Shown piece by piece: positions 7,291 through 30,033 of a stretch of 43,662 bases of DNA. Where the stretch lies: NCBI GenBank assembly GCA_030426515.1, contig JAUHYM010000005.1, positions 1 through 43,662 on the forward strand. The letters run 5' to 3'. Within the stretch, counting starts at the first letter, position 1. The number at the start of each line of letters is the position of its first letter. The stretch comes from Actinomycetes bacterium (GTDB taxonomy: Bacteria; Actinomycetota; Actinomycetes; Actinomycetales; Microbacteriaceae). A program made the translations under genes and the position numbers. The notes beneath the pieces are model-generated. The model was not told the DNA's origin and ran no database searches. It worked only from the letters and a program-made list of their open reading frames with translations.

Positions 7291-7300
7291 GGAGGGCACA

Positions 7301-11984: not shown

Positions 11985-12017
11985 AGGTCGAGTTTTCCAC
12001 AGCCCATCGCACACCAG

Positions 12018-12082: not shown

Positions 12083-12814
12083 GTGGGTGACACAGGATTT
12101 CGACTTCAGATTCGGACCGGGTCCGAGCGGTTCGAGGACGCTCCACTTCAGGACGTGACGTGGCGGTGGCTGCAACGGGCCATCCAGTTTCGAGAATTCA
12201 GGTACTGGAAGGGCCAGAAGCACTACCCCGGGCTGTACTGGTCATCGACCATGCGGGCGCACGTTGGATACGAATCGCGTCTTGAGCTCTGGTCGGCCCT
12301 CGGCGCTGACTTCGATCCGCACGTCTGCTTTCAGCTCTCGCAGCCGTTCGAGCTGTCCGAGGGCACAGGCACGCGGCGGCGGTACCACGTCCCGGACTAC
12401 CTCCTCAGGTACGACGATGGTCGGCTTTGTGTCGTTGACGTGAAGCCCGCCAGCAAGCTCGCGAAGCCGAAGGTTCAGGCTCAATTCGCCTGGACCCGTC
12501 GGGCGTTGAAGTCGCGCGGGTGGGAGTACCGCGTCGAGTCCGAGCCTGATGACACGTATCTGCAGAACCTGCGATTTCTTGCTGGCTACCGGCGGCGCAT
12601 ACAGTTCGACCAGGATCACGTCCACCTCGCTCATGAGCGCCTGAGCGGTCCGCTTTCTTTCGGCCAGGCTGTTGCTTCTGTGACGTCGATCTGCGGCGAT
12701 CGCGAGGAAGCTCGTGCCATCGTCCTGCACCTGCTGTGGACGCGGCACTTCAGGGCCGACCTCTCTGTACCGCTCCAGTTGACAAGCATCCTTGAGGCGA
12801 CTCGGGATGCCTGA
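12083..12814 (+). CDS. tnsA: TnsA-like transposon endonuclease
   Basis: YESRLELWSALG...YHVPDYLLRYDDGRLCVVDVKPASK: E...D...(V)xVK nuclease signature of the TnsA N-terminal domain; sits directly upstream of tnsB. Confidence 0.85.
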   Translation: MGDTGFRLQIRTGSERFEDAPLQDVTWRWLQRAIQFREFRYWKGQKHYPGLYWSSTMRAHVGYESRLELWSALGADFDPHVCFQLSQPFELSEGTGTRRRYHVPDYLLRYDDGRLCVVDVKPASKLAKPKVQAQFAWTRRALKSRGWEYRVESEPDDTYLQNLRFLAGYRRRIQFDQDHVHLAHERLSGPLSFGQAVASVTSICGDREEARAIVLHLLWTRHFRADLSVPLQLTSILEATRDA

Positions 12815-15023
12815 GCTCGCGATCGGACTTGAGCTCGTTTACTACGGCGACCGGTGTCAGATCGTCGAGATTCAGGGCGGCGCGGTAGTTCTCGTTGATT
12901 CCCGTTCGCGCGCGAGGCGGGTTCGGCTCATCGATCTCCTCAAACCCGCGGAGCATGGTGGTCTCGCGCAGCTGCCGCGCGACGGCAGCGACGACAAGGC
13001 CACTGACGAGAACGTCTTGTTCGGGGTTCAGTGGACCACCGCCACGCCGGCTGCACGCGCGGAAGCTCATCGTCTCGCAGAGCACATCCGGGAGCTCGAG
13101 ACCGGGTACCGGTCAGGGTCTTTCGAGATCGCTCGACCCGACGAACCGCGGCCACAGTACGACGTCGGGGCGACCACGATTGGGCAACGCGAGCGTTCCA
13201 AGGCCGAGGAACTCGGCAAGCACGTGCGGACCATCCAGAACTGGCGCCGCCTCTACCGCGATCTCGGCGAACCGGGCCTGCTGGATGGCCGAGCGGCGCG
13301 ACACGGCACGCTCCTGAAGAATCTGGATCCTGCGTGGCTTGATACGTGCAATTCGGTGCTCGACGACTTGGAGCCGCTCGCGAAGCGGGACAAGACAATC
13401 GTGATCGGTTGGATCGAGGATCGCGTCCAGCAACGCGAAGCTCGAGGCGACTACGGAGGGCGTGCCGTGCGCCGTCCAAGCAGGACGACGATCAACGAGG
13501 TGTTGAGAGAACTGGACCGCGGACGGGGACTGTTCACCGGCCCGACATCAACGAAGCGCTCCAGAGCGAGCGGACCGGACGGAGAGCACGGGCGGAATCG
13601 TGCGGTGCGACCGGGTGAGTATCTGCTGCTCGACACGACGAGGCTGAACCTCTTCGCCATGGACGCAACGCGTGGCTCCTGGGATCCTGTAGAGCTCACC
13701 AGCGCGCTCGACCTCGCGAACCGCACAGTGCGTGGGATCCGACTCACACCGCGGTCATCCAAATCGGTCGACGTGTCCTCGATTCTCTTCGAGGCCATGC
13801 AACCGTTCGAGCCGCCGAGCGAGTGGAGCTCCGAGGCGGTCTGGCCGTACGGCGGTATGCCGAAGCACCTCGTGGTCAACACCGAGAAGATCAAGGTCGC
13901 ACGATTCTGGACGGCTGAGGACGAGAAGATCCGTCGTGACCAGATCGCGCAGCGACGTGCGCAGGAGAAGCAGATCAAAGCGGGGGCGTTTGGCGAAGGG
14001 CTGCTCCCCGAGACGATCATTGTGGACCACGGCAAGGTTTACGTCTCGGAGCACCTCACGAACTTCTGCGCGAGGAACGGTATCTCGATCCAGCCAGCGC
14101 GCTTGGGAATGGGTGTGGACAAGGCTCAGAAGGAGCGATGGTACGGAACGTTCGAGTCACTCATCCAGGAGCTGCCGGGATACAAAGGCAGGTCGGTCGC
14201 AGGCCGAGGGCGCCGCCCCGAAAGCGAAGTCGTCTACACCATCCAGCAGCTAGAGCAGATCTTGCGGGAGTGGATCGCGACGGTCTACCACCACGCGCCG
14301 CACTCCGAGCTATTCGATCCACACCTGCCGGGCGTGTTCATGACGCCGCTACAGGCGTACGAACGCGGTGTCGCGATGTCCGGACGGTTGCGTGTGCCGT
14401 TCGACCGCAACCTGCTGATCGAGATGCTCCCCATCGAGTTGCGCCATTTCAATCACTACGGCGTCGAGATCAATGGACTCACGTACACGGGCCCGATCGT
14501 GGCGAAGTATCGAAACCGTTCTCGGCTGATCTCGTCTGGGAGCCGCGGCTGGCCGTTCCACTTCAACCCCGACGACATGACTCGGATCTACTTCCACGAC
14601 CCCGACGACCGGCAGTGGCACACGCTGCTATGGAACCGTGCCGCCGAGCTGAACATGCCCTTCGGCCTCGATGCTCTGGAATACGCCAAGTCGATCGCTG
14701 AGACACGCGCCGGCAAGAAGGACGTGGAGCGCGCACTCGTTGATCTGCTCCGAAGGCTCGGCATTGCCCGCGGGGACAACCCGCGGGAGAAGCTCATTGC
14801 AGCGCGGGCGGTGGCTCAAGCCCCGGATCCGCGTCTACCGCTGGACCAGCCGACGTCCCTGTCGACCGTGAGGCGTCTGCTGGACGCTCACAATGCCGCC
14901 AACGACCCACCGCTCACCGGAGAGAGCCCCACGCAAGAGATGGAGGCGGCGCCCACCGGGACACACAAGCCGCCTCTGACCCCGCGGGAGGACTTCTATG
15001 ACGATGATCTGGCGGACCTGTGA
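12807..15023 (+). CDS. tnsB: TnsB-like DDE transposase (Mu/Tn7 family, rve plus Mu C-terminal domain)
   Basis: GEYLLLDTTRLN...ETIIVDHGKVYVSEHLTNFCARNGISIQPARLGMGVDKAQKERWYGTFESL gives D/D/E; Mu_C-like region HFNHYGVEINGLTYTGP. Overlaps tnsA by 8 nt. Confidence 0.92.
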   Translation: MPELAIGLELVYYGDRCQIVEIQGGAVVLVDSRSRARRVRLIDLLKPAEHGGLAQLPRDGSDDKATDENVLFGVQWTTATPAARAEAHRLAEHIRELETGYRSGSFEIARPDEPRPQYDVGATTIGQRERSKAEELGKHVRTIQNWRRLYRDLGEPGLLDGRAARHGTLLKNLDPAWLDTCNSVLDDLEPLAKRDKTIVIGWIEDRVQQREARGDYGGRAVRRPSRTTINEVLRELDRGRGLFTGPTSTKRSRASGPDGEHGRNRAVRPGEYLLLDTTRLNLFAMDATRGSWDPVELTSALDLANRTVRGIRLTPRSSKSVDVSSILFEAMQPFEPPSEWSSEAVWPYGGMPKHLVVNTEKIKVARFWTAEDEKIRRDQIAQRRAQEKQIKAGAFGEGLLPETIIVDHGKVYVSEHLTNFCARNGISIQPARLGMGVDKAQKERWYGTFESLIQELPGYKGRSVAGRGRRPESEVVYTIQQLEQILREWIATVYHHAPHSELFDPHLPGVFMTPLQAYERGVAMSGRLRVPFDRNLLIEMLPIELRHFNHYGVEINGLTYTGPIVAKYRNRSRLISSGSRGWPFHFNPDDMTRIYFHDPDDRQWHTLLWNRAAELNMPFGLDALEYAKSIAETRAGKKDVERALVDLLRRLGIARGDNPREKLIAARAVAQAPDPRLPLDQPTSLSTVRRLLDAHNAANDPPLTGESPTQEMEAAPTGTHKPPLTPREDFYDDDLADL

Positions 15024-15997
15024 ATCCCGAGCTGGAACGGAAGGAGCGACTGTCGAAGTACGAGGGGTGGCGCGACTTCGCTGAGGGTGAGCCGGATCCC
15101 GAGCCGGATCTGCTCACCAAGAAGCAGATCCGTGCGCTGGGCGACGCGGCGCGCTTTGAGTACAACCGCGCGCGGGGCAGCTATCACGGGAACATCCTCG
15201 TCCGCACCCGTGAGGTCGATATCGCGATGGAGCATCTCGCCGATCAAGTGGAAAGCGCGATGCAGGGACCAGACCGCGTCAAGGGTGCGTCGGCCATCGA
15301 TGCGGCACCGTCAGTTGGCAAGAGCACGATCCTCACCCGATTCGGCCGCGAGTTCCACCGAAGCCAGATCGCTCGGTATGGGAGGTACCTCGACGATGGG
15401 GATACCCTCCACATCCCGGTATGCCACATCGGGTTCACCGGGAAGATGACCACGAAAGGTCTCAACGGCAAGATCTTCGACTTCTACAACCACCCGAGCG
15501 TGCACGACCGGAAGCGGCGTCCGGCGACGGATGACGGTCTCGCCGCCGAGGCGGCCGATGCGGCGGTGCGACACGGAACCCGCTTGTTCGTCGTCGATGA
15601 CGTGCACTTCCTGAAGCCCCTCACGAAAGACGGTGGTGAGGTTGCAAACCAGCTGAAGTGGATTGCGAACGAATACCCCGTCACCTTCGTGTACGCGGGA
15701 GTCAACCTCAACGACAAAGGCATCCTCGAGGAAGGGAGCATCCTCGAGACCGCGCAGACAGCACGCCGTTGGACGCTGATACCGCTCAACCCATTCACGA
15801 TTTTCGACCCAGTCCGTGAGCGTGAGTGGGAGCAGCTGATCAGGTCAATCGAGCGCCGCGTCGTACTGGCCGAGGCATACCAGGGGATGCTGTTGAGCAT
15901 CTCCGACTACCTCTTCGCGCGCAGCACCGGGTACATCGGCTCTCTCATGACGTTGATCACACGCGGGATAACGAAGAGCGATCCGAACCGGGGCTGA
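15020..15997 (+). CDS. tnsC: TnsC/TniB-like AAA+ ATPase (frame ends early; see 15972-16130)
   Basis: Walker A DAAPSVGKST, Walker B LFVVDDVHFL; GTG start overlaps the tnsB stop by 4 nt. Confidence 0.88.
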   Translation: MNPELERKERLSKYEGWRDFAEGEPDPEPDLLTKKQIRALGDAARFEYNRARGSYHGNILVRTREVDIAMEHLADQVESAMQGPDRVKGASAIDAAPSVGKSTILTRFGREFHRSQIARYGRYLDDGDTLHIPVCHIGFTGKMTTKGLNGKIFDFYNHPSVHDRKRRPATDDGLAAEAADAAVRHGTRLFVVDDVHFLKPLTKDGGEVANQLKWIANEYPVTFVYAGVNLNDKGILEEGSILETAQTARRWTLIPLNPFTIFDPVREREWEQLIRSIERRVVLAEAYQGMLLSISDYLFARSTGYIGSLMTLITRGITKSDPNRG

Positions 15998-16130
15998 GCG
16001 CCTCGACCAAGAGTTGCTCGACCGCGTCCTGACGGACACGGCCGCGGAGCGGCGACGCGTCGAGACCGCTGCCGCGGTCCAGGTTTTCCGCGAGACCGGA
16101 CGCATTCCACCTTGGGCTGTCAGTGCGTGA
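15972..16130 (+). other. Out-of-frame continuation of the TnsC/TniB-like C-terminus (+1 frame)
   Basis: +1 frame opens after TAA at 15969-15971 and reads RRAIRTGAERLDQELLDRVLTDTAAERRRVETAAAVQVFRETGRIPPWAVSA*. Its stop (16128-16130) overlaps the tniQ GTG (16123) by 8 nt, as in the other gene junctions of the operon. Confidence 0.7.
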
Positions 16131-18552
16131 GCGGTCTACGGATCCGCTACGCAGGCTACCGTTCCGCCTCCGCCCTCTCCCAGATGAGCCATTCGACTCC
16201 TGGCTAGAGGCATACGCACACGGCTATGGGGCATCGGTTGCGGAACTCGGCCTGTCACTGGGGCTGATCGATCCCGCCGTCTCGACACAGTCGACGCCCG
16301 TGGTCACGAACTCGTGGGCGACAACGCTCACCTCAATGCAGCTTGACAGCCTCGAAGAGACGACTGGTTTCCCTCGCCGCGCGTTCATTGAGATGACGCG
16401 GTTGAACTTCGCCGCCGCTGCTGTCCGCCTCACGAGCACCGGACGCATTAGCGCAAGTTGCGCGGGCTCTGGAGTGGCCGGCCGCTTCTGCCCGGAGTGC
16501 CTTCGCAACTCCGGTGGGCGCTGGCGACTCTCATGGCAGTTCGCCTTCGGATTCGCATGTCTGCGGCATCGCATACTGCTCGTCGACGTCTGCCCGCAGT
16601 GCGGCCAGAACCCTCGGAAACTCGGCCATCCGATAGCGCAGGTTCCCAAGCCAGGGCGCTGTCACAACCCCGTCCGCGATGCGACCGGCCAATCGCGCTG
16701 TGGCGCCGACCTCACCCAAAATACCGACCCGATCGCGGCGCCGGCGATTGTCCGCGACGCACAACGCACAATCCTCCACGTGATATCGCGCGGCTCGGCC
16801 CGGTTCGGCCTGTACAGCGCGGACCCTCAGCCGGCGCTGTTGGTCATGGAGGACTTCAGGCTCCTCAACAAGCTCACTCGAGCGAAGTTCCGCGTGGATG
16901 CCAGCGCGCTCGCGCAAGCGGAACTCGGCGACGACCTGTCGGGTCGGTTCCTCGCGCTTCGCGCGAGCGATGCCGAGCGACGATCCGTCCATCCAGCCAA
17001 TGCGGTGCTCGCAGCAGTCGGCAACGCGGGCGCATACCGTGCCATCTCTGATCCCACAGAGTTGCCCGCGCTCCTTGCCGACCGGCTCCCTAGGACCATG
17101 AGCACGAGTGGATACTCTCGACCGCTCGCGCAGCTGATCGATGCGAGCCTGGGCCGCCGTCACCGGCCTTCCACAACGCTCCGCGCAGCCGTAGCGGGAG
17201 TGGCGACGCGTCCCGAGGATCGTGCACGAAAGGTTCCCGCACTCTTGTGGCCGGCGTGGACCGAGAAGCTTGCGCCGAACCGACTAGACCGCGAAGTGGC
17301 CGCCAGCGCATTGGCCGCTTCTGTGCTCCTTGTGGGGAGCGACCTCACTCATGGCGCCGCGCTCCGCCTCCTCGATCCGGAGTCGCCCGGACGACGTGTC
17401 TCGCACCTGATGACCACTCTCGGAAGATCGCGCGCCGAGGGGCGAAGCATCGGGGCGATCGTCGAGCTCGCCGACTACCTCGACCGCACGGATGCGCCCA
17501 TCGACTACTCCCGTCGACGAGCCCTCGACTACTCGGCGCTGCTCCCCGAGCGCGAATGGCAAGACCTGTGCGAGGAAGAAGGGGTCAATGCTGGTTCCGG
17601 TCGCCGCTGGCGAGCAGCCCGGCACGCGCTTTTCGCCCTCGTCACGGGCAGCCGCGTCGATGCAGCTCCATTCCCAGACTCGCTCACCGGCCAGGCGCGG
17701 GCAATGGCGCGCGACTTCCTGGCCAGGGCGCCGGTGAGAGTCCGGCAGGCACTCGAGGGCGTCGCGGTGGCCTTCCTGCAGGCGAACAATATCGATGAGC
17801 CGTTGATATGGGCGCCCCCTACGCCAGACGCCCCAGAGACGGTCTCCGAGTCGGATGTCCCGGTGGTCGAGAAGCCTTGGGCGCGCGCTCGTCCAGGGGC
17901 GGATCGCCTGGCGGAGACCCTGCCCTCGGAGCGACTGACGGCCGCGTACGAGGCCGGTAGGTCGACGCGCGAGCTCGCTGTCGAGGGCAATGTCGCTCGT
18001 CAGACCGTTGCCCGCGCACTCGAGCGCGCCGGAACCCCGGCCAGACCGCCGGGCCGGAACAAGCGCATCGATATCGACAATGACTGGCTGAGGCAGCGGT
18101 ATGTCCAGGAGCATGCGACCATTCCCGAACTCGCAGTCGAGATCGGATGCTCCAACCAGTCCGTCAGCAGATTCCTGGAGCGCGCCGGCATCCCGGCGCG
18201 CCGGCGCGGAAGCGCCAGCCGCGCAGACTCGCTCCGCCCACATCCCATCGCGAAAGACTCTGCGCTGCTTCGGCGTGCGCTCATCGGCCAGGGCGCACGC
18301 CAACGTGCCCAGCGATTCCTGTTCGCCTGCGACTACGCGACGCTCACCGGAGCGGCCCGTGCGCTCGAGATCAGCCCCGCTACACTCACCACCCAGATGA
18401 GACTCCTCGGAACCGCGTCGGGCGGAGACCTGTTCGTGTCGGCCCAGCGCGGACAGCCGATGAGGCTCACGGAAACTGGGCGGCGCCTCAAGCGCGAGTT
18501 GCTCAAGGCACGGAGTGAGCACCCCGAGTTGTGGGGAGAGGACGGAGCCTAG
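16123..18552 (+). CDS. tniQ: TniQ/TnsD-family target-selection protein with C-terminal HTH modules
   Basis: PLPDEPFDSWLEAYAHGYGASVAEL start; zinc-finger cysteines FCPECLRNSGGRWRLSWQFAFGFACLRHRILLVDVCPQCG typical of TniQ; C-terminal HTH repeats. Confidence 0.88.
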   Translation: MRERSTDPLRRLPFRLRPLPDEPFDSWLEAYAHGYGASVAELGLSLGLIDPAVSTQSTPVVTNSWATTLTSMQLDSLEETTGFPRRAFIEMTRLNFAAAAVRLTSTGRISASCAGSGVAGRFCPECLRNSGGRWRLSWQFAFGFACLRHRILLVDVCPQCGQNPRKLGHPIAQVPKPGRCHNPVRDATGQSRCGADLTQNTDPIAAPAIVRDAQRTILHVISRGSARFGLYSADPQPALLVMEDFRLLNKLTRAKFRVDASALAQAELGDDLSGRFLALRASDAERRSVHPANAVLAAVGNAGAYRAISDPTELPALLADRLPRTMSTSGYSRPLAQLIDASLGRRHRPSTTLRAAVAGVATRPEDRARKVPALLWPAWTEKLAPNRLDREVAASALAASVLLVGSDLTHGAALRLLDPESPGRRVSHLMTTLGRSRAEGRSIGAIVELADYLDRTDAPIDYSRRRALDYSALLPEREWQDLCEEEGVNAGSGRRWRAARHALFALVTGSRVDAAPFPDSLTGQARAMARDFLARAPVRVRQALEGVAVAFLQANNIDEPLIWAPPTPDAPETVSESDVPVVEKPWARARPGADRLAETLPSERLTAAYEAGRSTRELAVEGNVARQTVARALERAGTPARPPGRNKRIDIDNDWLRQRYVQEHATIPELAVEIGCSNQSVSRFLERAGIPARRRGSASRADSLRPHPIAKDSALLRRALIGQGARQRAQRFLFACDYATLTGAARALEISPATLTTQMRLLGTASGGDLFVSAQRGQPMRLTETGRRLKRELLKARSEHPELWGEDGA

Positions 18553-18911
18553 GCAACACCCGGTGCGACGACATCCCCATGACCGGGAACATAGGAGATC
18601 ACGCCGAGGCGGGACCAGTAGCTCACGAACCACGCCTCAACCAGCGCACCTTGTTCACGGCGGTGCGCGAGCGAACGTCGAGGGTCTTCGATGACGCTGT
18701 CCCAGTCGAGGTTCGGGAAGACCTGGTTCATGAGCTCGGCGCGGGTCGGGCCTGTGCCGTGGAGGTCCCACCACCGGCGCGTAGCCTCACCGGCGCGCCG
18801 GGCGGTCTCGCTGCCGTTCGGTTCCTCGATCGTCCCGATCAGCACCTCGAGGAACGGGTCGGCAGCGGCCAATGAGAACGCCTCAATCTCGCCCGGATCC
18901 CGCTCTTCCAT
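18549..18911 (-). CDS. Hypothetical protein downstream of XRE regulator
   Basis: 120-aa ORF (ATRRWWDLHGTGPTRAELMNQVFPNLDWDSVIEDPRRSLAHRREQG...); no family recognised. Confidence 0.55.
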   Translation of the reverse strand: MEERDPGEIEAFSLAAADPFLEVLIGTIEEPNGSETARRAGEATRRWWDLHGTGPTRAELMNQVFPNLDWDSVIEDPRRSLAHRREQGALVEAWFVSYWSRLGVISYVPGHGDVVAPGVA

Positions 18912-18930
18912 GATCCGACGATGCCGTACG

Positions 18931-18941
18931 GATTAGGCCAT
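18931..18941. promoter_or_regulatory. Third copy of GATTAGGCCAT motif, upstream of ORF 18549-18911
   Basis: gattaggccat at 18931-18941, identical to an arm of the inverted repeat at 19255-19284. Confidence 0.5.
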
Positions 18942-18959
18942 GCCAATCACGCATGCCGA

Positions 18960-19241
18960 TCAACGTGCGGCGAGGTCAGGCGCCTTTGCGGGGAGCAGGT
19001 CCGTGAGCTCGACCTCGAGTACCTGCGCGATCGCCAACAGCGTCTGCAGGCGAGGGTTGGCGGGGTCGCCCGGACGAGACTCACCCTTCTCGAGCTTCTG
19101 GTAGGTATACCTGCTGAGCCGAGCCTCATACGCGACCCGCTCTTGGCTGTAGCCGCGCTCGACGCGATGCCGCTGGATGTTGCTGCCGATGTCCCGCGCG
19201 TACGACTCCCACGTCACGGAGGAGCGCTTGCTGCTGGGCAC
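18960..19241 (-). CDS. XRE-family HTH transcriptional regulator
   Basis: IGSNIQRHRVERGYSQERVAYEARLSRYTYQKLEKGESRPGDPANPRLQTLLAIAQVLEVELTDLL, classic Cro/C1 HTH. Confidence 0.88.
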   Translation of the reverse strand: MPSSKRSSVTWESYARDIGSNIQRHRVERGYSQERVAYEARLSRYTYQKLEKGESRPGDPANPRLQTLLAIAQVLEVELTDLLPAKAPDLAAR

Positions 19242-19254
19242 CTCCCAAGGCTGG

Positions 19255-19284
19255 CGATTAGGCCACCTCTACATGGCCTAATCG
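19255..19284. promoter_or_regulatory. Putative XRE operator: perfect 11-bp inverted repeat
   Basis: cgattaggcca (19255-19265), cctctaca, tggcctaatcg (19274-19284), between the XRE start and hsdM. Confidence 0.75.
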
Positions 19285-19441
19285 GTATGGCATTTTTCGA
19301 TGAATGTCACGTTGAGAGGTCGCAACCTCCGGCATCTCGGCTCTGACGACCCTGGACCGTCCGGGGCATGGGCCAGGATGGGAGGGTTCGCGGCGCCTGC
19401 GCCGCTTGTTCGTTGCTCTACAGCAGGAGTGCCCACCTGTG

Positions 19442-21388
19442 GTGAATCACGTCGCCTTCATCTGGAACATCGCCGAGTCTCTTCGCGGCCCGTTCAAGCC
19501 GTCCGAGTACGGGTCGGTCGTCCTTCCGTTCACGGTGCTCCGCCGCCTTGACGCCGTGCTCGCCGACACGAAGCCCGCAGTCCTCGAGGCTGCGAAAGGC
19601 ATAGAGACGCTCCCCGAGATGCTGCAGGCGATCAAGCTCCAGGAAGCTGCGGGCCACCAGTTCTACAACACGTCCCCGTTCGACTTCACCAAGCTCGTCG
19701 CCGATCCCGCCGACCTCCGCGCGAACCTCTCCGCCTACCTCGCCGGGTTCTCGCCGAACGTGCGGGACATCTTTGAGCGGTTCGAGTTCGACAAGACGCT
19801 GAACAAGCTGGCGGAGAAGAACAAGCTGTTCGCGGTGACAGAGAAGTTCGCGCAGGCCGACTTCCACCCCCGCACGGTCAGCAACATCCAGATGGGCCTC
19901 GTGTTCGAGGAGCTGATTCGGTTCGCGAACGAGAAGTCGAACGAGTCCGCCGGCGACCATTACACCCCGCGCGAGGTCATCAAGCTCATGGTCGAGCTGC
20001 TGTTCGCGCTCGACGACGACGCGCTGGCGAAGCAGGGTGCCGTCCGGTCCATCTACGACCCGACCGCCGGCACCGGCGGCATGCTGTCGGTCGCCGACGA
20101 GTACCTGCACACCCTGAACCCGGGCATCCAGCTCAGCCTGTACGGGCAGGACTACAACGACCAGTCGTACGCGATCTGCAAGGCCGACATGGTCATCAAG
20201 GGGCAGGATGTCGACAACATCGCCCTCGGCGACACCCTCACCGAAGACGCCTTCGACGACAAGAAGTTCGACTACGGCCTGTCCAACCCTCCGTTCGGGG
20301 TCGACTGGAAGGACCAGCGCGCCGTCGTCGACGACGAGCACACCAAGCTCGGCTTCAACGGCCGGTTCGGGCCCGGCACCCCCGCCGTCAGCGACGGGGC
20401 GATGCTGTTCCTCCTTCACCTGGTGTCGAAGATGCGTAAACCCGAAGACGGCGGATCCCGCATGGCGATCGTCCTCAACGGGTCACCGCTGTTCTCCGGC
20501 GGCGCCGGCGGCGGCGAGTCGAACATCCGCAAGTGGCTGCTCGACAACGACCTCGTCGAAGCGATCATCGGACTGCCGAAGGACATGTTCTACAACACCG
20601 GCATCTCCACCTACATCTGGGTACTCACCAACCGCAAAGACGAGAACCGTAAGGGCCGGGTGCAACTCATAGACGGGCGCGAGATGTTCACCAAGCTCCG
20701 CAAGGGCCTCGGCTCCAAACGCAACGAACTCTCCCCCAAGAACATCGAGACCATCGTCGGCTTGTACGCCGGGTTCGAGGACGGCGAGCACTCGAAGATC
20801 TTCCGCAACGAGGACTTCCTCTACCGCACCATCACCGTCGAACGCCCCCTCAAACTCAACTGGCACGCCACCCCTGAACGCATCGACACCGTCTTCGACG
20901 CCAAGGCCATCCAGAAGCTGAATGAGACGGATGCCGCAGCACTCCGCGCCGCCCTCGACCGGCTTGGCACCGCAACGGTGTGGAAGAACCGGGCTGAGTT
21001 CCAGAAGGTGCTGAAGGATGCCGCGAAAGCCGAAGGCCTCACCCTTCCCGCACCGCTCCTCAAGACCGTGACCACCGAACTCGGCGAGCAGGACGACACC
21101 GCCGACATCTGCACCGACGCCAAGGGCAACCCTGAGGCGGATGCGTCACTCCGCGACACCGAGAACGTGCCGTGGGACGAGGGCGTCGGCGCCTACGTCG
21201 CCCGCGAAGTCCTCCCATACGCACCCGACGCGTGGATCGACCACTCCAAGACCAAGGAAGGCGCGGAGATCCCCTTCACCCGCCACTTCTATAAGTACAT
21301 CGCGCCTCGACCACTCGAGGAGATCGACCGGGACCTCGACGCCGTCATGGACCAACTCCGCGCAATGCTCGCCGAGGTCGAGCGGTGA
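19442..21388 (+). CDS. hsdM: Type I restriction-modification system, DNA methyltransferase subunit HsdM
   Basis: VNHVAFIWNIAESLRGPFKPSEYGSVVLPFTVLRRLD; DPTAGTGGML and SNPPFG methylase motifs. GTG 19442 preferred over ORF-track start 19406. Confidence 0.95.
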   Translation: MNHVAFIWNIAESLRGPFKPSEYGSVVLPFTVLRRLDAVLADTKPAVLEAAKGIETLPEMLQAIKLQEAAGHQFYNTSPFDFTKLVADPADLRANLSAYLAGFSPNVRDIFERFEFDKTLNKLAEKNKLFAVTEKFAQADFHPRTVSNIQMGLVFEELIRFANEKSNESAGDHYTPREVIKLMVELLFALDDDALAKQGAVRSIYDPTAGTGGMLSVADEYLHTLNPGIQLSLYGQDYNDQSYAICKADMVIKGQDVDNIALGDTLTEDAFDDKKFDYGLSNPPFGVDWKDQRAVVDDEHTKLGFNGRFGPGTPAVSDGAMLFLLHLVSKMRKPEDGGSRMAIVLNGSPLFSGGAGGGESNIRKWLLDNDLVEAIIGLPKDMFYNTGISTYIWVLTNRKDENRKGRVQLIDGREMFTKLRKGLGSKRNELSPKNIETIVGLYAGFEDGEHSKIFRNEDFLYRTITVERPLKLNWHATPERIDTVFDAKAIQKLNETDAAALRAALDRLGTATVWKNRAEFQKVLKDAAKAEGLTLPAPLLKTVTTELGEQDDTADICTDAKGNPEADASLRDTENVPWDEGVGAYVAREVLPYAPDAWIDHSKTKEGAEIPFTRHFYKYIAPRPLEEIDRDLDAVMDQLRAMLAEVER

Positions 21389-22563
21389 GTGCACCTTGGC
21401 TCGGCGAACTGCCTAATGGGTGGCAGGAGATCGCGCTTCGCTATCTCGCGCGAATCGAGACAGGCTCCCGCGACACTGTAGATGCGGTACCGGGTGGTGA
21501 GTACCCCTTCATCATTCGCTCGCAGACGCCGCTTGAGATCGACACATACTCCTATGACACGGAAGCAGTCCTCACTGCCGGGGATGGAGCTGTCGGTGAG
21601 ATCTTCCACCACATCAATGGCCGATTCGAAGTCCATCAGCGCGTCTATGTCATGCACGACTTCCACGGTCTGGACGGACGCTACTTCTACTACTACTTCT
21701 CCTCGGAGTTCGGGCAGACAGTCGCATACGGGGGCGCACAGTCGACCGTCGCTTCTCTCCGACGGCCGATGTTCACTGGGTTCCCCGTGGCGGTGCCACC
21801 CTTGGAAGTCCAGCGGGCGATTGCGAACTATCTGGATCGGGAGACGGCGCAGATCGACGCGTTCATCGCGAAGAACGAGGAACTCATCACCCTCCTCACC
21901 GAACGCCGCGCCTCAGTCGCCTCCCGAGCAATCGATAGGGGATTCCCGGATGTCTCAGTGCGCCACATAGTGCGGCTCATCCAGACTGGACCGTTCGGCA
22001 GTCAGCTTCACTCCGAGGACTACGTGCCAGGTGGACATCCTCTGATCAATCCAATGCACATGATCGAAGGGCGAGCTGTCCCATCATCGGACGTTGCGAT
22101 CTCCGACGAAAAGGCGGATGAGCTTCGGCGCCATGAGCTCACGACGGACGATCTCGTCGTCGCAAGACGCGGAGAGCTCGGAAGATCGGCGCTCATCACC
22201 CGTGATGAAGTCGGATTCATCTGCGGAACGGGATCCATGCTCGTCCGTGCGGATAGCCGGCGAGTGGTAGCTCGCTACCTTCAACTCGCAATCGGGTCCG
22301 AGCGATCACGCGCGACGCTCCGCGAGCAATCAGTCGGATCGACGATGGAGAATCTCAATGCGGGTGCACTCAGCGCCCTCCGAGTGCCGCTGCCACCGAT
22401 CGACACCCAACGGGAGATCCTTCACGAGCTCGATGCTGCCAATGCTCGCATAGATGCGGCTCTAGCGACCGCGCGGCGGAGCATTGAACTTGCAGGTGAG
22501 CGTCGTGCCGCGCTGATTTCGGCTGCGGTGACGGGGAAGATCGACGTGGGGGTGGCGGTGTGA
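21385..22563 (+). CDS. hsdS: Type I restriction-modification specificity subunit HsdS
   Basis: Two target-recognition half-domains with VAVPPLEVQRAIANYLDRETAQIDAFIAKNEELI and VPLPPIDTQREILHELDAANARIDAALATARRSIEL conserved helices; overlaps hsdM by 4 nt. Confidence 0.92.
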   Translation: MSAPWLGELPNGWQEIALRYLARIETGSRDTVDAVPGGEYPFIIRSQTPLEIDTYSYDTEAVLTAGDGAVGEIFHHINGRFEVHQRVYVMHDFHGLDGRYFYYYFSSEFGQTVAYGGAQSTVASLRRPMFTGFPVAVPPLEVQRAIANYLDRETAQIDAFIAKNEELITLLTERRASVASRAIDRGFPDVSVRHIVRLIQTGPFGSQLHSEDYVPGGHPLINPMHMIEGRAVPSSDVAISDEKADELRRHELTTDDLVVARRGELGRSALITRDEVGFICGTGSMLVRADSRRVVARYLQLAIGSERSRATLREQSVGSTMENLNAGALSALRVPLPPIDTQREILHELDAANARIDAALATARRSIELAGERRAALISAAVTGKIDVGVAV

Positions 22564-25500
22564 GCGGTGTTGCTGGGGCACATTTGGAGTCGGTGCTGGA
22601 GAACGAGATCGCTGAGCATCTCGCCGCGAACGGCTGGTTGTACTCGCCGACCGACGCCGGGTACGACCGCCAGCTCGCACTGTTCCCCGAGGACGTGCTC
22701 GGCTGGCTAGAGGATTCGCAACCGACCGAGTTCGCGAAGGTCGTTCGTCCCGGTGACACCGAGGCTCAGCATGAGGCGGCTGGTCGCGGCATCCTGACTC
22801 GTCTTGCGAAGTCGCTGGATCTGGATCCGTTGAAGAACGGGGGGACGATCCGGATCCTGCATGAGGGTTTCTCGATGGTGCCGCTGCATGGGGGTGCGGT
22901 GAAGTTCCGGATGGCGCAGTTCCGGCCGGCGACCACTCAGAACCCAGACACGCTCGAGGCGTACGGGAAGATGCGGGTGCGGGTGATGCGTCAGGTGCAT
23001 TACTCGGCGAAGCATCCGAACAAGGCGCTGGATCTGGTGCTGTTCGTCAACGGCATCCCGGTCGCGACGGTCGAGTTGAAGACGGACTTCACCCAGTCGA
23101 TCGGAAACGCGGTGAACCAGTACCGGTTCGACCGGTCGCCCGCTGGTGAGCCGTTGTTCGGGTTCGCGAAGCGGTCGCTGGTGCATTTCGTGGTGTCGAA
23201 CTCCGAAGTGCAGATGACCACCAAACTCGCCGGGCCGAAGACGCGGTTCCTGCCATTCAACAAGGGTGCGGACGAGGGCGCCGGGAACCCGGTCAACCCG
23301 GACGGGTCGGCATCCGCGTACTTCTGGGAGGAGATCCTGCAGCGCGACACCTGGCTGCAGCTGCTGGGGTCGTTCGTGCACCTGCAGGTCGAGGTCGATG
23401 TCGACCCCGACACCGGCAAGAAGACCAAGACCGAGAAGGTGCTGTTCCCGCGCTACCACCAGTGGCGGGCCGTGACCCGGCTGGTCGACGCAGCGGGCGT
23501 GGAGGGACCGGGGAACCGGTACTTGGTGCAGCACTCGGCGGGGTCGGGGAAGACGAACTCGATCTCTTGGCTCGCGCACCGCCTCTCCCAACTCCACGAC
23601 GACCAGAACGCACGGGTGTTCGACACGGTCGTGGTGGTCACCGACCGGACCGTGCTGGACAAGCAACTGCAAGACGCGATAGCCCAGTTCGAGAAGCAGG
23701 CCGGGGTGGTGCAGTCGATCACCAAGGATGCGGGCGAGTCGAAGTCGAAGCAGCTCGCCGCCGCGCTGACCGGTGGCAAGAACATCGTGATCGTGACGAT
23801 CCAGTCGTTCGAGGCCCTGATCACCGCGATCCAGACCCTGCCCGAGTTGCAGGGGCGCCGGTTCGCCGTGATCGCAGACGAGGCGCACTCGTCACAGACC
23901 GGGTCAACCGCGGGGGCATTGACGAAGGTGCTGTCCCCGGACGAGCAGGCCGCGGTCGCCGAGGGCGCGCCGATCAATTCGGACGCGTACCTGCAGTGGG
24001 CGATGGAGGTCACCGCCGCCGCCCCCAACATCTCCTACTTCGCGTTCACCGCCACCCCGAAGGCGAAGACCCTGGAACTGTTCGGGCGGAAGCCGGAGGG
24101 TGGGGAACTGCCGGAGCCATTCGACCTGTATTCGATGCAGCAGGCGATCGAGGAGGGGTTCATCCTCGACGTGCTGCAGAACTACACGCCGTACAAGGTG
24201 GCGTGGAAGCTGCAGCATCCCGACTCCGAGTACGACGGTGCCGGAGAGGTCGACGAGTCGACGGCGGTGAAGGCGCTGGTGCAGTACGTCCGGTTGCATC
24301 CGACGAACATCAGCCAGAAGGCGAAGATCGTCGTCGACCACTTCCGCGCCTTCGTGCAGCCGCTGTTGGACGGCAAGGCGAAGGCGATGGTCGTCACCGG
24401 GTCACGTGTCGAGGCGGTGAGGTGGAAGAAGTATCTCGACAAGTACATCTCGGATGCCGGGGTGCTGGGGGTGCGGTCGCTGGTCGCGTTCTCGGGTACC
24501 GTCGAAGACCCGGACGATGTCGGTGAGGGGTTGACGGAGCGGACCCAGAACCCGGGGGTGCCGTCGGATCTTGCTGAGGCGTTCAAGCCGGCCACGTACA
24601 ACGTGATGATCGTGGCGGAGAAGTTCCAGACCGGGTTCGACCAGCCCCGTCTGGTCGCGATGTACGTCGACAAGAAGCTTGGCGGCGTGCAGGCGGTGCA
24701 GACCCTGTCCCGACTGAACCGCACCTACCCGGGCAAGGACAAGACCTTCGTCCTCGACTTCGTCAACGACCCGGTCGAGGTGCTGGACGCGTTCCTGCCG
24801 TACTACCGGAAGGCGACGCTCACCGCGACGACCGACCCGAACCTGATCTACGACCTCGTGACCAAGCTCGACGGTGCGGGGATCTACGACATGTCCGAGG
24901 TCGAGCAGGCGTTCGACGCAGCCCTCGCTCGCGGGGTGAATGTGAACTCGAAGGTGTCGGCCGCGACCGCGCCTGCGGTGGACCGGTTCCAGAAGCGGTG
25001 GGTCGCCGCGGTCCTGGATGACGACAAGGCTGAGCAGGACGAGCTACGACTGTTCAAGGCCGATGTCGGGAACTTCGTGAAGTTCTACGACTTCATCTCC
25101 CAGGCCCGTAACCTCGAAGACACCGACCTGCCCCGCCGACACTACTTCTTCCGCCGCATCCTCCCGCAGCTCTCGACCGCGACGATCCTCGAACCTGTCG
25201 ACATCTCCGACGTGACGTTGGTGGGCTACAAGATCAGTGCTGGCGAATCCGTGAAGCTCAACCTCGAGCAGGGGCCGGGGCTGGATCCGATCACCGCGAT
25301 CGGGTCAGGCGCAATCCACGAGAAGCACCGCTCCGCGCTCGAAGAGATCATCCATAAGCTCAACGAGCGCCTCGGCGACAAGTACGGCGTCGGCGTCATC
25401 GATCTTCAGATGAACCACATCGTCGGGAAGCTGGCGTTGGATGTCGAGCTCGCGAACCAGGCAGCGGTGAACAGCCCGCAGCAGTTCGCTGAGTCGCCGG

Positions 25501-25658
25501 CGTTGCCGAAGGCGTTCACGAAGGCGCTTCTCGGGGTGCGGGACGAAACGCCCGCGTTCATCGACGACCTGTTCAACGACAGTGGGCTGTACGCGGAGCT
25601 GGGGAAGGCGCTCCCGGCAATGCTCTACGAGTACCTGCGGGGAAGGAACTCAGCGTGA
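22560..25658 (+). CDS. hsdR: Type I restriction enzyme R subunit HsdR
   Basis: HsdR-type N-terminal nuclease region (DLVLFVNGIPVATVELKTDFT), Walker A HSAGSGKTNSISW, DEAH (VIADEAHSSQTG), FTATPKAKTLELFG; overlaps hsdS by 4 nt. Confidence 0.95.
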   Translation: MSGVAGAHLESVLENEIAEHLAANGWLYSPTDAGYDRQLALFPEDVLGWLEDSQPTEFAKVVRPGDTEAQHEAAGRGILTRLAKSLDLDPLKNGGTIRILHEGFSMVPLHGGAVKFRMAQFRPATTQNPDTLEAYGKMRVRVMRQVHYSAKHPNKALDLVLFVNGIPVATVELKTDFTQSIGNAVNQYRFDRSPAGEPLFGFAKRSLVHFVVSNSEVQMTTKLAGPKTRFLPFNKGADEGAGNPVNPDGSASAYFWEEILQRDTWLQLLGSFVHLQVEVDVDPDTGKKTKTEKVLFPRYHQWRAVTRLVDAAGVEGPGNRYLVQHSAGSGKTNSISWLAHRLSQLHDDQNARVFDTVVVVTDRTVLDKQLQDAIAQFEKQAGVVQSITKDAGESKSKQLAAALTGGKNIVIVTIQSFEALITAIQTLPELQGRRFAVIADEAHSSQTGSTAGALTKVLSPDEQAAVAEGAPINSDAYLQWAMEVTAAAPNISYFAFTATPKAKTLELFGRKPEGGELPEPFDLYSMQQAIEEGFILDVLQNYTPYKVAWKLQHPDSEYDGAGEVDESTAVKALVQYVRLHPTNISQKAKIVVDHFRAFVQPLLDGKAKAMVVTGSRVEAVRWKKYLDKYISDAGVLGVRSLVAFSGTVEDPDDVGEGLTERTQNPGVPSDLAEAFKPATYNVMIVAEKFQTGFDQPRLVAMYVDKKLGGVQAVQTLSRLNRTYPGKDKTFVLDFVNDPVEVLDAFLPYYRKATLTATTDPNLIYDLVTKLDGAGIYDMSEVEQAFDAALARGVNVNSKVSAATAPAVDRFQKRWVAAVLDDDKAEQDELRLFKADVGNFVKFYDFISQARNLEDTDLPRRHYFFRRILPQLSTATILEPVDISDVTLVGYKISAGESVKLNLEQGPGLDPITAIGSGAIHEKHRSALEEIIHKLNERLGDKYGVGVIDLQMNHIVGKLALDVELANQAAVNSPQQFAESPALPKAFTKALLGVRDETPAFIDDLFNDSGLYAELGKALPAMLYEYLRGRNSA

Positions 25659-25707
25659 CAGGGGTGCGTGCAATGCGGCACGACCACGAGATAGTTTCGG
25701 AGTGTTG

Positions 25708-26535
25708 ATGACGGCGCCCTTGCCACGCCCCGCCTACCTCGACTCGCTTGTCCCGAGCGGTGCGGGCCTGAAGTCGGTTGATGATCTGGATATCGAGCTG
25801 TGGGAGCTAACCGTACCGACGGACTCAACGGTTCTTAGCGAATGGGCCGATCGATTTCGGGAGGCGTATTGCCCCGAATCGGAGATCGACGCCCTCCGCG
25901 CAGGCACGGGCAAAACGCGAAGTGAATACCTTAGGGATCTCGTGTTCCCGAACGCATCTCAGGGCTTGGGGCCCGCGGTGCGAGCGGGCGATTTCACCGA
26001 GCTCCTAGTTTCGGATTTTCTCGAGAGCGAGCACGGACTCTGGGTGCCGAGGCAGAAGTACTCTACGAAACCAATACCGGACTCGTCGGCACAAGGCGTT
26101 GACATCGTTGGGCTCCGCATAGCGGACCCAACCAATTGGTGCGACGACGATCTTCTCGTTGTGTGCGAAGTGAAAGCCGGGCTTTCAGGTGCCCGTTACG
26201 GTGACCAGCTCCAGAATGCGATCACCGACAGCGCCAAAGACTACTTGCGAGTCAGCTTCACCCTCAACGCGACCAAACGTCGGCTACTGTCCGCGCAAGA
26301 CCATCTGGGCGCCGCAACGGTGGAGCGCTTTCAGAATCACGCAGATAGACCATACCGGTTCACGTCGACCGCTACTGCCGTCCTCGACACCAAGACTTTT
26401 GATCCGCTCGAGGTCTCGCAGGCAGATGCGAGCGCACACAACAACCGGGAACACCTGAGCTTGTTGGTCATTCGTGGCGCGGGCCTTATGGCTCTAGTCC
26501 ATGCGCTATACCAGGCGGCCGCGGATGGAGCTTGA
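25708..26535 (+). CDS. hamA: HamA-like DUF1837 nuclease (Hachiman defence effector)
   Basis: FTELLVSDFLESEHGLWVPRQKYSTKPIPDSSAQGVDIVGL...DDLLVVCEVKAGLSGARYGDQLQNAITDS, DUF1837-like PD-(D/E)xK pattern, followed immediately by a large SF2 helicase. Confidence 0.75.
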   Translation: MTAPLPRPAYLDSLVPSGAGLKSVDDLDIELWELTVPTDSTVLSEWADRFREAYCPESEIDALRAGTGKTRSEYLRDLVFPNASQGLGPAVRAGDFTELLVSDFLESEHGLWVPRQKYSTKPIPDSSAQGVDIVGLRIADPTNWCDDDLLVVCEVKAGLSGARYGDQLQNAITDSAKDYLRVSFTLNATKRRLLSAQDHLGAATVERFQNHADRPYRFTSTATAVLDTKTFDPLEVSQADASAHNNREHLSLLVIRGAGLMALVHALYQAAADGA

Positions 26536-29500
26536 GTCCAACAGCTTGCGGTTGCTTGCGGTTACTCGAGCTCAGGGCAAGGTCCGCGAGTTCCGCGTCG
26601 CAGAAGAGCACTACCCCGTTGTTCCTGACGAGGATGAGCCCGAGTCGCTCCTGCTCACCGCTGTTGGGATCCTCGGCGACGCCGCCGCGCACTACATCGA
26701 GCGGGGCAACTCCGGCTCCGACGATATGGTGGAGTCTCGCCTAGGACTCTGCGCCAAATGCTTCGACGCGCTACTCGAATCGGAACTTGCGCCGGAGATT
26801 GAGCGTGAACTGGTACTTCTTGCCGGAGCCTCCTACTTCCTCGCCGGTCGGCCAGGTAGCAGTGCAGTAATGGCGCGTCGATTGAGGGACACCACCTCAT
26901 CTGGAGCTCTCGATGAGCTTCTGGAATGGGTTCTGGGCGATGCCCTCAGCGAGGTTCCGTACCGCTATGCAACAGCCACCGGCGATGAACTTCACGCCGC
27001 GATCGTGGACCGCCTAAGCCAACACTTCGCCAACGGAGCTTCGGAGGCGGAGGCTCTGCCGTTGCTCGACGAGCTGCGATCGGGTGTCTATTCGGTCGGG
27101 ACACCGAGAGACCTTCTGTACGCAGACCTTGTGTACGTGGTGGCCCGGATGCGTTTGGCGGCCTCAGCATGGAACACGATTCCTGCGTTCAGTGACCTTC
27201 GCCGGGAGCAATGGGCGCCCGTGCTGAGAAAAGCTCGCTTTCCACGAGAGCTCTGGCCGAGCCAGCTGCTCATGGGACACGCCGGGTTGTTCCGAGGTCT
27301 TTCCGGCGCTGTCGTGATGCCGACGAGCGCCGGGAAAACCCGCGCAGTCGAGATCATCCTGCGGAGCGCCTTTCTTGCCGACAGGGCCAAACTCGGCGTC
27401 GTGGTCGCACCGTTCCGAGCGCTGAGCCACGAGATCGCCACGAGCCTGCGATCGTCGTTCGCCGGTGAGGCTGTACGAGTGAATGAGCTGTCGGATGCCC
27501 TGCAGCTCGATTTCGACGAGTTCCTGAGTCGACTGCTTTCTGGTGATCACGTGTCGCGCCCTGTCGTCCTCGTGCTTACACCTGAGAAGCTGCACTACGT
27601 CCTTCGACAGACGCCTTCGCTCGCCGCGCACATTGGCGTGATCGTGTACGACGAGTGCCACCAGTTCGATAGCGGTGCCCGCGGAGTCACGTACGAACTC
27701 CTGATCACCGAGATTTCTCGCGCGCTGAGTGGGTGTCAGACCGTGTTGGTCTCCGCCGTCATGTCCAACGCAAGGGATGTTGCGGAGTGGGTCCTGGGCT
27801 CCGAAGCCCAGGTGGTGGACGGTTCGCAGCTCGTGCCTACCGCTCGGGCCACTGCTTTCGCTTCATGGTCCCGGCGACTCGGACAGCTCCAAGTGTTCGA
27901 TGAGCAGGTCGGGGAGCGTGCGGACTACTTCGTTCCTCGAGTTATCGAGCAGTACTCACTTCAGCTGCGCGGGCGAGAACGTCGGGAGCGCGCGTTTCCG
28001 CAGAAGGGCGGCAACGCATGGAAGGATGTTTCGCTCTACCTGGGAATTAAGCTCGCCGCCGAAGGACCCGTGGCCATCTTCTGCGGTCGAAAGGACACAG
28101 CAAACGGCCTCGCTGCGATCATCGCAGACGCGTATGAGCGAGGGTTGCCCATTGCGCCGCCGGTCACGTACTCAGATTCGGTTGAAGTTGACAACATTTG
28201 GCGCCTGACCGCGAACCACTACGGTGCGCAGAGTTCGAGAGCTATCGCTGCCCGCCTCGGGATCTTCCTCCACCACGGCACGACCACGCACGGGCTGCGG
28301 TTGTCGGTTGAGCACGCAATGCAGCAGGGACAGATACGCCTCGTCGTGTGTACCTCAACGCTTGCACAGGGTGTGAACCTACCGATCCGCTACCTCGTGG
28401 TGTCTGGTACCCGCCAGGGCGCCGATCACATCAAGGTCCGCGATTTTCAGAATCTGCTGGGTCGTGCCGGGCGAGCAGGGATGCATACAGAGGGACTCGT
28501 GATCTTTGCCAACCCCGATCTATACGATCAACGGGAGCGGCGGTCCGGATCGTTCGCGTCGGCAACCAGCCTGCTGTCCTCGAGCATGATTGAAGACATG
28601 GGCAGTTCCTTGCTCGAGTCGATTTCACCGATCCGCCTGCAAGGGCCGCCTGCCGAAATCGACGTAGACCCGAGCGACATGATCGCTGCTCTCTACGCAT
28701 CGGAGGAGACGCGGAATAGTTGGGCGAATGCCGTCGCTCAAACGCGTGGACAATCGGGCCGCGGCTCGGAGATAGCGAAAGTGCTCGCCTCGAGGCGACG
28801 GGAACTAATGGCTCTTGAGAGCCACCTGATGGCGATGGGCCAGGAGGAGGACGGTGCGGCGGTGGCGACTCGCGCAGCCGCGCTTGCCAGTCACACGCTT
28901 GCCTTCGCGCTAGCCGATGAGCCGCAAAAGCGAGCCCTAGAGGCATTGTTCGAGCGTGTAGTCGCTCACGTGAACGAAATCGAGCCCGAGCCCGCGCGTC
29001 GGGCTCTCTACGCTCGCACAATGCTGGGTGCGGAACAGGCAGCCAGCGTATTCGAGTGGGTGCAGGGCAGGCGGCAGTATCTCGAGGCCATCGAGGGGGC
29101 GGAAGAGTGGCTCCTAGCATTGTGGGATCTATACGCTGAGGGCGCCAATTCTTCGTTCGTTCGATCGGCGGAACCCCGTTCAGCCCTTCGCACGATCGCC
29201 GCTGGATGGATATCCGGGTCGTCCTACGGTGAGCTTGCCGCAACCGCCACGGAGCTCGGACTCACCAAACCGCATGGCGCGCGCCGGATTTCTGTCTCCC
29301 CGGAGGACATCTTTACGTTCTGTGATCAGGCGCTGTCATTTGAGATGTCTTTGCTTGTGGCCGCCGTAGCCCTCGCGCTGGATGAGGATGACCCTACTTC
29401 ACCGATCGCCACGTTCCAGAAAAGCCTCAAGTACGGTCTTCCGAACGGGTTGTCCATCACGACATATGAATCGGGCGTCGCGGACAGATTCCTCGCCCAA

Positions 29501-29656
29501 CGTATCGCGCAGGAGTTGCTCGACGCGGGCTTTTTGGGCTTGAGCTTTGAAGAGGCGTGGTCGTCGCCCCTGCGAGAGGTCGTGGTTTCGGTTCTCCAAT
29601 CGGCACCGTCCTGGTTCTCGGATGCGGTACGGATACACGCCACGAGTGCCACGTAG
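26525..29656 (+). CDS. hamB: HamB-like superfamily 2 (Ski2-like) DEAD/DECH helicase (Hachiman)
   Basis: Walker A VVMPTSAGKTRAVEI, VIVYDECHQF, CTSTLAQGVNLPIRYLVVSGT, DFQNLLGRAGRAGM; ATG 26525 overlaps the hamA end by 11 nt. Confidence 0.85.
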   Translation: MELESNSLRLLAVTRAQGKVREFRVAEEHYPVVPDEDEPESLLLTAVGILGDAAAHYIERGNSGSDDMVESRLGLCAKCFDALLESELAPEIERELVLLAGASYFLAGRPGSSAVMARRLRDTTSSGALDELLEWVLGDALSEVPYRYATATGDELHAAIVDRLSQHFANGASEAEALPLLDELRSGVYSVGTPRDLLYADLVYVVARMRLAASAWNTIPAFSDLRREQWAPVLRKARFPRELWPSQLLMGHAGLFRGLSGAVVMPTSAGKTRAVEIILRSAFLADRAKLGVVVAPFRALSHEIATSLRSSFAGEAVRVNELSDALQLDFDEFLSRLLSGDHVSRPVVLVLTPEKLHYVLRQTPSLAAHIGVIVYDECHQFDSGARGVTYELLITEISRALSGCQTVLVSAVMSNARDVAEWVLGSEAQVVDGSQLVPTARATAFASWSRRLGQLQVFDEQVGERADYFVPRVIEQYSLQLRGRERRERAFPQKGGNAWKDVSLYLGIKLAAEGPVAIFCGRKDTANGLAAIIADAYERGLPIAPPVTYSDSVEVDNIWRLTANHYGAQSSRAIAARLGIFLHHGTTTHGLRLSVEHAMQQGQIRLVVCTSTLAQGVNLPIRYLVVSGTRQGADHIKVRDFQNLLGRAGRAGMHTEGLVIFANPDLYDQRERRSGSFASATSLLSSSMIEDMGSSLLESISPIRLQGPPAEIDVDPSDMIAALYASEETRNSWANAVAQTRGQSGRGSEIAKVLASRRRELMALESHLMAMGQEEDGAAVATRAAALASHTLAFALADEPQKRALEALFERVVAHVNEIEPEPARRALYARTMLGAEQAASVFEWVQGRRQYLEAIEGAEEWLLALWDLYAEGANSSFVRSAEPRSALRTIAAGWISGSSYGELAATATELGLTKPHGARRISVSPEDIFTFCDQALSFEMSLLVAAVALALDEDDPTSPIATFQKSLKYGLPNGLSITTYESGVADRFLAQRIAQELLDAGFLGLSFEEAWSSPLREVVVSVLQSAPSWFSDAVRIHATSAT

Positions 29657-30033
29657 GCCGGCCTCGAGTGTCGCGGAGGCGTCAGCGCGATTGGGCCGAC
29701 GGTCTCGTAGGAATTCGCAATCTAGAATCGACACGCGAGTGCCCGATCAGCCGAAAACTGTTGTGGATCTCGGTTTCACTGCGCAAGATCGATCGGGATC
29801 CGACACCCGGCATAGCCGCTGGTCGGCCGCATCCTCTGGCGCCCGACACGTCGTCGCTCGCGTTCGGATGCCGAGGGCATGCGGGCATTCCCTCCGGTCG
29901 GGCCCACCGGGCACACGCTCGCACACCCACGTGACAAGCGGGACGCCCACGCAGAGGCGGAGCGGCTCCCTGAGGGAACAGCCCCGCCTTTCGACCGCCC
30001 GACGGAGCGGTCATGGACGATGCCGGGTGGCGG

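Follow-up and report, generated by a model that had tools for sequence, protein, structure and literature searches.

A clade of actinobacterial Tn7-like transposons that encode TnsA, TnsB, TnsC and a long TniQ very probably uses the 3′ side of dnaB as its attachment site. The stretch of DNA analysed here very probably holds an array at such a site, consisting of part of an element A, a small unit B and a damaged element with a type I restriction-modification (RM) system and the defence system Hachiman (the tns/RM/Hachiman element). This stretch of 43,662 nucleotides, referred to as the window, is the complete contig C23 (JAUHYM010000005.1) of assembly GCA_030426515.1, whose host belongs to the genus Microbacterium. 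The assembly comprises 2.5 Mb in 230 contigs, is 73% complete and was treated as a metagenome-assembled genome (MAG). Genomes used for comparison are referred to by number (G).

Probable attachment site downstream of dnaB

An element end is located directly after the dnaB stop codon in 18 relatives and on contig C185 of the assembly itself, which was taken to carry the host's own dnaB. At least six types of end sequence occur in this position. The same adjacency was found outside the genus, in Nocardia brasiliensis, Streptomyces caeruleatus and Agromyces italicus, and many congeners carry no element behind dnaB. Altogether, the dnaB 3′ end serves as a fixed attachment site, with the right end of the element facing the target gene, in about 20 genomes including those of other genera. 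In M. ihumii (G362, L043 17109-19673), dnaB is split by an intein-like insert and an element is also present behind its 3′ end.

dnaB lies near 16 of 62 TnsB-related loci. Every dnaB-adjacent locus with an intact tniQ carries the long TniQ type, and among about 31 loci whose TniQ is distant (Rhodococcus, Cellulomonas and others), dnaB did not occur once. The C-terminus of the long TniQ contains a tandem helix-turn-helix (HTH; residues 593-679) followed by a LysR-like winged HTH (716-781). Since the long TniQ type tracks dnaB adjacency and has these C-terminal domains, our best inference is that TniQ would recognise the dnaB 3′ end, like TnsD at glmS. The AlphaFold model of TniQ is moderate (pLDDT 71, pTM 0.39) and was used just for the C-terminal HTH domains already evident by sequence; a Foldseek search with it returned nothing below E 0.001.

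Layout of the window

At 7,880 and 7,888 of the window, the ends of two elements meet back to back, the first belonging to element A and the second to unit B. They are separated by the heptanucleotide CCCGTGA. On C185, the dnaB end reads ...GACATCGGCCCGT directly followed by the element sequence TGTAGGTTCC..., i.e., ...GGC CCG T/TGTAGG.... Because this dnaB end has the same sequence, CCCGT may represent the duplication from a dnaB-adjacent insertion, and CCCGTGA would then consist of this duplication plus the remainder of a former stop codon. Near the other end of the window, a gene for an M14 peptidase shows 85% identity to a gene of G299 that is located 3.3 kb downstream of dnaB with the same orientation, at a site without an element. 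From the match of CCCGTGA to the C185 dnaB end and the synteny of the M14 gene we infer that the window belongs downstream of dnaB, so that C185 and C23 would be linked and the A tail, B and the tns/RM/Hachiman element would form part of one array on the 3′ side of the gene. The element into which the C185 dnaB runs matches one in Microbacterium sp. 67-17 at 100% identity over 5.3 kb; its identification with element A was dropped, as the right ends differ. A second dnaB contig of the assembly, C130, is 99.7% identical to a stretch of another MAG (G308) and, judging by this identity, is probably a contaminant.

Positions 1505-7881 of the window match the element A copies of G127 and G303 at 99.95-100% identity. 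The G127 copy is complete (21,904 bp, target site duplication CATCG), and no tnsA, tnsB, tnsC or tniQ could be detected in it by profile hidden Markov models. Element A is about 99.95% identical between different Microbacterium species at different insertion points. Near-identical copies placed elsewhere are a sign of recent movement.

Unit B likewise has its own ends and target duplications without tns genes. Five other genomes contain a single B away from dnaB with a perfect duplication, AACGC, on both sides, and in G127 four tandem B copies stand behind dnaB with CCGGG between them. Four of these five genomes were scanned with profiles, and no tns genes were found near B in any of the four. 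The ends of B resemble those of autonomous elements, for example that of G187 and element T of G127. Both A and B may be mobilised in trans; the tandem copies of B could alternatively have arisen by unequal crossing-over. A longer element starting at 7,888 and including the cadmium genes was dropped as a candidate, as 7,888-10,984 forms a unit of its own, whose paired ends belong to another sequence family.

Two tns operons of differing types, about 15-35 kb apart, are found on each of two contigs of other genomes (G302 contig C108 and G181 contig C34). These may be further examples of stacked elements.

Ends of the tns/RM/Hachiman element

The ends were identified by comparison with relatives, as a brute-force scan for inverted repeats in 10.85-12.08 kb and 29.6-37 kb gave chance-level matches only. 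A near-identical relative of 18,971 bp in G103 has exact 13-bp inverted termini flanked on both sides by GGTAG. Its right end, TGTCGGATCCCGA, follows immediately after the dnaB stop codon, and these 13 bp recur in inverted orientation at its left end. The G103 element corresponds to the window at 11,690-13,362 (96% identity), 18,478-21,393 (91%) and in hsdR (22,569-25,636, 91%). It has lost most of tnsB, tnsC and most of tniQ, and the remaining tnsAB-XRE-HsdMSR block is enclosed by the matching ends.

In the window, the left end could be located 137 bp past the HamB gene. Its terminus is identical to both G103 termini in 13/13 positions and to the G103 left end in 17/17, the chance expectation for such a 13-mer being about 3e-5 in 200 bp. 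An inner motif, CTAGATTGCGAA, is also common to the window left end and G103. The right end, TGTCGGATCC, is absent from the window and from the rest of the assembly. Another exact copy of TGTCGGATCCCGA in the assembly was rejected as right end, since it is coding sequence within an oxidoreductase gene. Of the TGT...ACA ends that G103 has on both sides, this copy retains the left one only.

The first-pass annotation, which was made from the sequence of the window alone, had not found the ends and had proposed a comparison with related genomes. In such a comparison, G103 shows both termini and a 5-bp duplication around tnsAB and hsdMSR; in the window itself the search yielded the left end and no right end.

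The right end is missing exactly where the left terminus of B stands, and the flanks of B in the window are unequal (CGTGA and AGCCG). Both observations would follow from recombination between two copies of B or from a deletion beside it, and the right end was probably lost in one of these ways. The window copy is a one-ended remnant of a Tn7-like element and is probably no longer mobile as a unit.

Several observations weigh against an array at dnaB that includes this element. C185 and C23 are unjoined in the assembly, which is fragmented, incomplete and contains a second dnaB contig. The boundary of the tns/RM/Hachiman element is seen on one side only, and the 5 bp past its left end, CCCGG, are not identical to the dnaB duplication CCCGT. 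Furthermore, the related elements in G133, G119 and G124 have no dnaB in the stretch examined.

An alternative is a misassembly, in which collapsed B copies would have joined a dnaB array to a tns element from elsewhere. The junction lies exactly on a terminus of B, which can be present in several copies, the flanks of B mismatch, and the MAG is contaminated. Nevertheless, the assembly contains a single B copy, and the M14 peptidase gene on the far flank belongs behind dnaB in G299, as a real join predicts. For these reasons, a misassembly is considered rather unlikely.

The first-pass annotation had expected a simple element with its start between 10.97 and 12.08 kb, i.e., one intact transposon whose right end would lie shortly before tnsA and whose left end would lie shortly after HamB. 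The gene order and the left end fit this, and the sequence up to 10,984 does end in CCTACA. However, this CCTACA pairs with the end at 7,888 to form the tns-less unit B, which stands alone with perfect duplications in other genomes, and the only exact match to a right end in the assembly is the one in the oxidoreductase gene. An intact element is improbable on these grounds, and the array with a damaged element remains the preferred reading.

Defence cargo

HsdM, HsdS and HsdR are encoded together, as is characteristic of a type I RM system, with NCBIfam scores that fall under their cut-offs. HamA (DUF1837) stands beside the HamB helicase, as in Hachiman systems. The HamA open reading frame (ORF) opens at 25582; the ATG at 25708 is the likely start, and the HamA1 profile matches from residue 50 of the ORF. 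From these protein families, an anti-phage function can be predicted for both HsdMSR and HamAB.

As the left end lies beyond HamB and the G103 ends enclose tnsAB together with hsdMSR, the hsd and ham genes can be placed inside the element. This bears out the first-pass interpretation of an actinobacterial Tn7-like element with RM and Hachiman as cargo, in contrast to a chance neighbourhood of a tns operon and hsd/ham genes with independent boundaries in a defence island. For the latter speaks that modules have been exchanged: G103 lacks Hachiman, and M. aerolatum has the RM module on a different tns backbone. Yet in G103, tnsAB and hsdMSR are enclosed by one pair of ends that is flanked by a target duplication, hsd adjoins tniQ in a dnaB-attached element in each of the three Microbacterium carriers of the RM module, and the left end in the window is outside HamB, which renders chance neighbourhood very improbable.

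The cargo is not passed on as a single fixed block, however. The slot that follows hsdR and precedes the left end in G103 (L071:16251-19890) holds genes for a UvrD-like helicase, DarT and an ADP-ribosylglycohydrolase in place of Hachiman. The RM module is common to G103 and, at 81-82% DNA identity, M. aerolatum (L230), where it is located directly behind tniQ of a different dnaB-attached element with only a partial tnsB match. No HamB homolog at E<=1e-60 was found in 368 other Microbacterium genomes. On the basis of this distribution, RM appears to be an older companion of these elements shared with relatives and the slot before the left end to be exchangeable, with Hachiman as a probably recent arrival unique to this copy among 369 congeners. 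Elements of Cellulomonas and Paraoerskovia also carry related hsdM genes (52-55%), a few kb downstream of tnsC. The UvrD/DarT/ADP-ribosylglycohydrolase genes of G103 possibly form a DarT-based defence or toxin-antitoxin set.

The three Microbacterium elements with the RM module all look damaged, by loss of the right end (window), deletion of tns genes (G103) or with a partial tnsB match (M. aerolatum). With three cases, it can be suggested that useful cargo may outlast mobility.

Transposition genes

All genes named in the first-pass annotation at 12,083-29,656 (those for TnsA, TnsB, TnsC, TniQ, the XRE regulator, HsdMSR and HamAB) are present, open and full length according to profile searches. 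Their order, with XRE and HsdMSR following tniQ, was also given correctly; the adjacency had to be amended, as the XRE gene is on the minus strand and a further minus-strand gene, Y, is located between it and tniQ.

The residues E64/D105/K121 of TnsA, the triad D281/D412/E448 of TnsB (invariant in 13 aligned sequences) and the Walker A/B motifs of TnsC are conserved, so that the catalytic residues of all three proteins appear intact. By profiles and catalytic residues, the element thus has TnsA, TnsB and TnsC as well as a selector of the TniQ/TnsD type and, as judged by this gene content, is an actinobacterial Tn7-like transposon that is partly decayed. Genes X and Y and the small winged-HTH gene, which has a counterpart with 36-46% identity in nearly all relatives, are assigned to the transposon backbone because they accompany tnsABC-tniQ in related elements.

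A CRISPR-associated transposon (CAST) or a TnsE-type element with guided or replication-fork targeting can practically be dismissed: TniQ weakly matches CAST-associated TniQ profiles, but neither cas nor TnsE-like genes turned up in the set of proteins scanned with profiles (a specific scan for CRISPR arrays was not included), and the dnaB site accounts for the targeting.

Features of the window

The coordinates of all features are collected in Table 1. Just past the left end of the tns/RM/Hachiman element, a PemK/MazF-type toxin is encoded at 31289-31630 with a likely antitoxin gene upstream (region 31082-31630). Neither a tRNA nor an Rfam RNA was detected in the window.

Table 1. Elements, genes and termini in the window, with the profile matches or comparisons on which the assignments are based.
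Feature	Position	Strand	Evidence or remark
Left-end-proximal 7.9 kb of Tn7-like element A (M23 peptidase, CopD/CtaG, others)	1..7880	.	carries copper genes; ends ...CGGGAACCTACA at 7880
CCCGTGA between two element ends	7881..7887	+	would correspond to the old last codon and stop of dnaB (G-P-stop)
Unit B, tns-less Tn7-like, 3,097 bp	7888..10984	+	right terminus TGTAGGGGTTTTT..TGTCCATTTC at 7888; left terminus ..GATGGACATCTCTGAGCGGTCCCTACA at 10984
CmtR Cd(II)/Pb(II)-sensing repressor, B cargo	7926..8387	+	NCBIfam equivalog NF047906, 173.7 bits
CadA-type heavy-metal P-type ATPase, B cargo	8384..10291	+	TIGR01512, 495 bits
Signal peptidase II, LspA-like, B cargo	10288..10848	+	PF01252, 1.4e-23
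Gene X, accessory gene of the tns element	11074..11520	-	52-65% amino acid identity to genes that occupy this position, before tnsA, in related elements
Small winged-HTH regulator, divergent from tnsA	11688..12014	-	94% to G103; weak HTH Pfam matches
tnsA	12083..12814	+	PF08722; NCBIfam TnsA_like_Actin NF033179, 217.6 bits (cut-off 110)
tnsB, DDE transposase	12792..15023	+	HTH, rve and Mu-C matches; solved TnsB structures by profile (7svw, 9.6e-23)
tnsC/TniB, AAA+ regulator	15020..15997	+	PF05621, PF13401
Large tniQ, TnsD-type target selector, 809 aa	16123..18552	+	PF06527, 2e-18
Gene Y, accessory gene	18549..18911	-	88% in G103; in relatives, 55-59% to a gene located before tnsA
XRE-family regulator	18960..19241	-	PF01381, 1.9e-8
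HsdM	19406..21388	+	PF02384; PADLOC MTase_I, 914 bits
HsdS	21385..22563	+	PF01420, two stretches
HsdR	22560..25658	+	SWI2_SNF2 and HSDR_N
HamA (DUF1837)	25708..26535	+	PF08878; PADLOC HamA1, 4.6e-89
HamB DEAD-box helicase	26501..29656	+	likely start 26525; PADLOC HamB1, 1095 bits
Left end of the tns/RM/Hachiman element	29696..29805	-	terminus TCGGGATCCGACA at 29793-29805; inner motif GAATTCGCAATCTAG near 29.71 kb
M14 peptidase gene, native to the region behind dnaB, array flank	37997..41209	+	synteny with G299

Proposed mechanism and implications

By analogy with TnsD and glmS, the long TniQ would recognise the dnaB 3′ end via its C-terminal HTH domains. TnsB would bind repeated sites at the TGT...ACA ends, TnsA and TnsB would excise the element, and TnsC would link TniQ with TnsA/TnsB. 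Insertion would take place with the right end first, directly behind the dnaB stop codon and with a 5-bp duplication, leaving DnaB intact, and repeated use of the site would lead to a tandem array. As several elements are stacked behind one gene, any target immunity would not act between them. A wider picture, to which we give an even chance, is that of an actinobacterial dnaB dock, at which autonomous TnsABC-TniQ elements and satellites mobilised in trans (A with about 22 kb and metal genes, B with 3.1 kb) are stacked with a duplication each time and resistance and defence genes accumulate without effective target immunity.

For the actinobacterial Tn7-like clade, the analysis gives an attachment site, real boundaries and a candidate reader protein. 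Unit B is a natural minimal donor and empty sites exist, so that target choice, mobilisation in trans and target immunity are directly testable. The proposed attachment to dnaB would also account for the origin of a class of Microbacterium defence and metal-resistance islands, and a TniQ directed at a conserved replication gene could serve as an actinobacterial insertion tool.

Comparison with known systems

An Actinobacteria-dominated clade of Tn7-like elements was described as experimentally uncharacterised by Benler et al. (2021, PMC8649781). The elements studied here probably belong to the same broad clade, with which they have actinobacterial TnsA/B and defence cargo in common. The dnaB site is not named in the main text of that paper or in Faure et al. 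(2023, PMC10293859), nor in Table 1 of a 2024 review (PMC11406308). A search of titles and abstracts, with subscription papers and supplements outside its scope, returned no paper on a Tn7-like dnaB site. Provisionally, the dnaB site with stacked autonomous and tns-less units is regarded as the new part. Defence cargo on a Tn7-like element was to be expected.

With the Tn6022/AbaR and Tn6230-type islands (comM, yhiN), the elements share the location at one fixed gene and a cargo of resistance and defence genes; they differ from them in the target genes and the selectors (TnsF/Orf3 in Tn6022). The Hachiman (HamAB) and type I RM proteins match their profiles over most of their length and are ordinary. 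Only the carrier is new. Hachiman carriers were given as Proteobacteria, Firmicutes and Spirochaetes only by Benler et al. (2021).

The closest parallel is Tn7 itself (tnsABCDE, glmS site). Common to both are the core of TnsA, TnsB and TnsC with a TniQ/TnsD-type selector, the TGT...ACA ends and the 5-bp duplication, as seen in the G103 relative, and a right end beside tnsA that faces the target gene, with insertion just behind a conserved essential gene. In contrast to Tn7, the target here is dnaB instead of glmS, no TnsE was seen, and the selector is an 809-aa TniQ with a tandem HTH and a LysR-like winged HTH.

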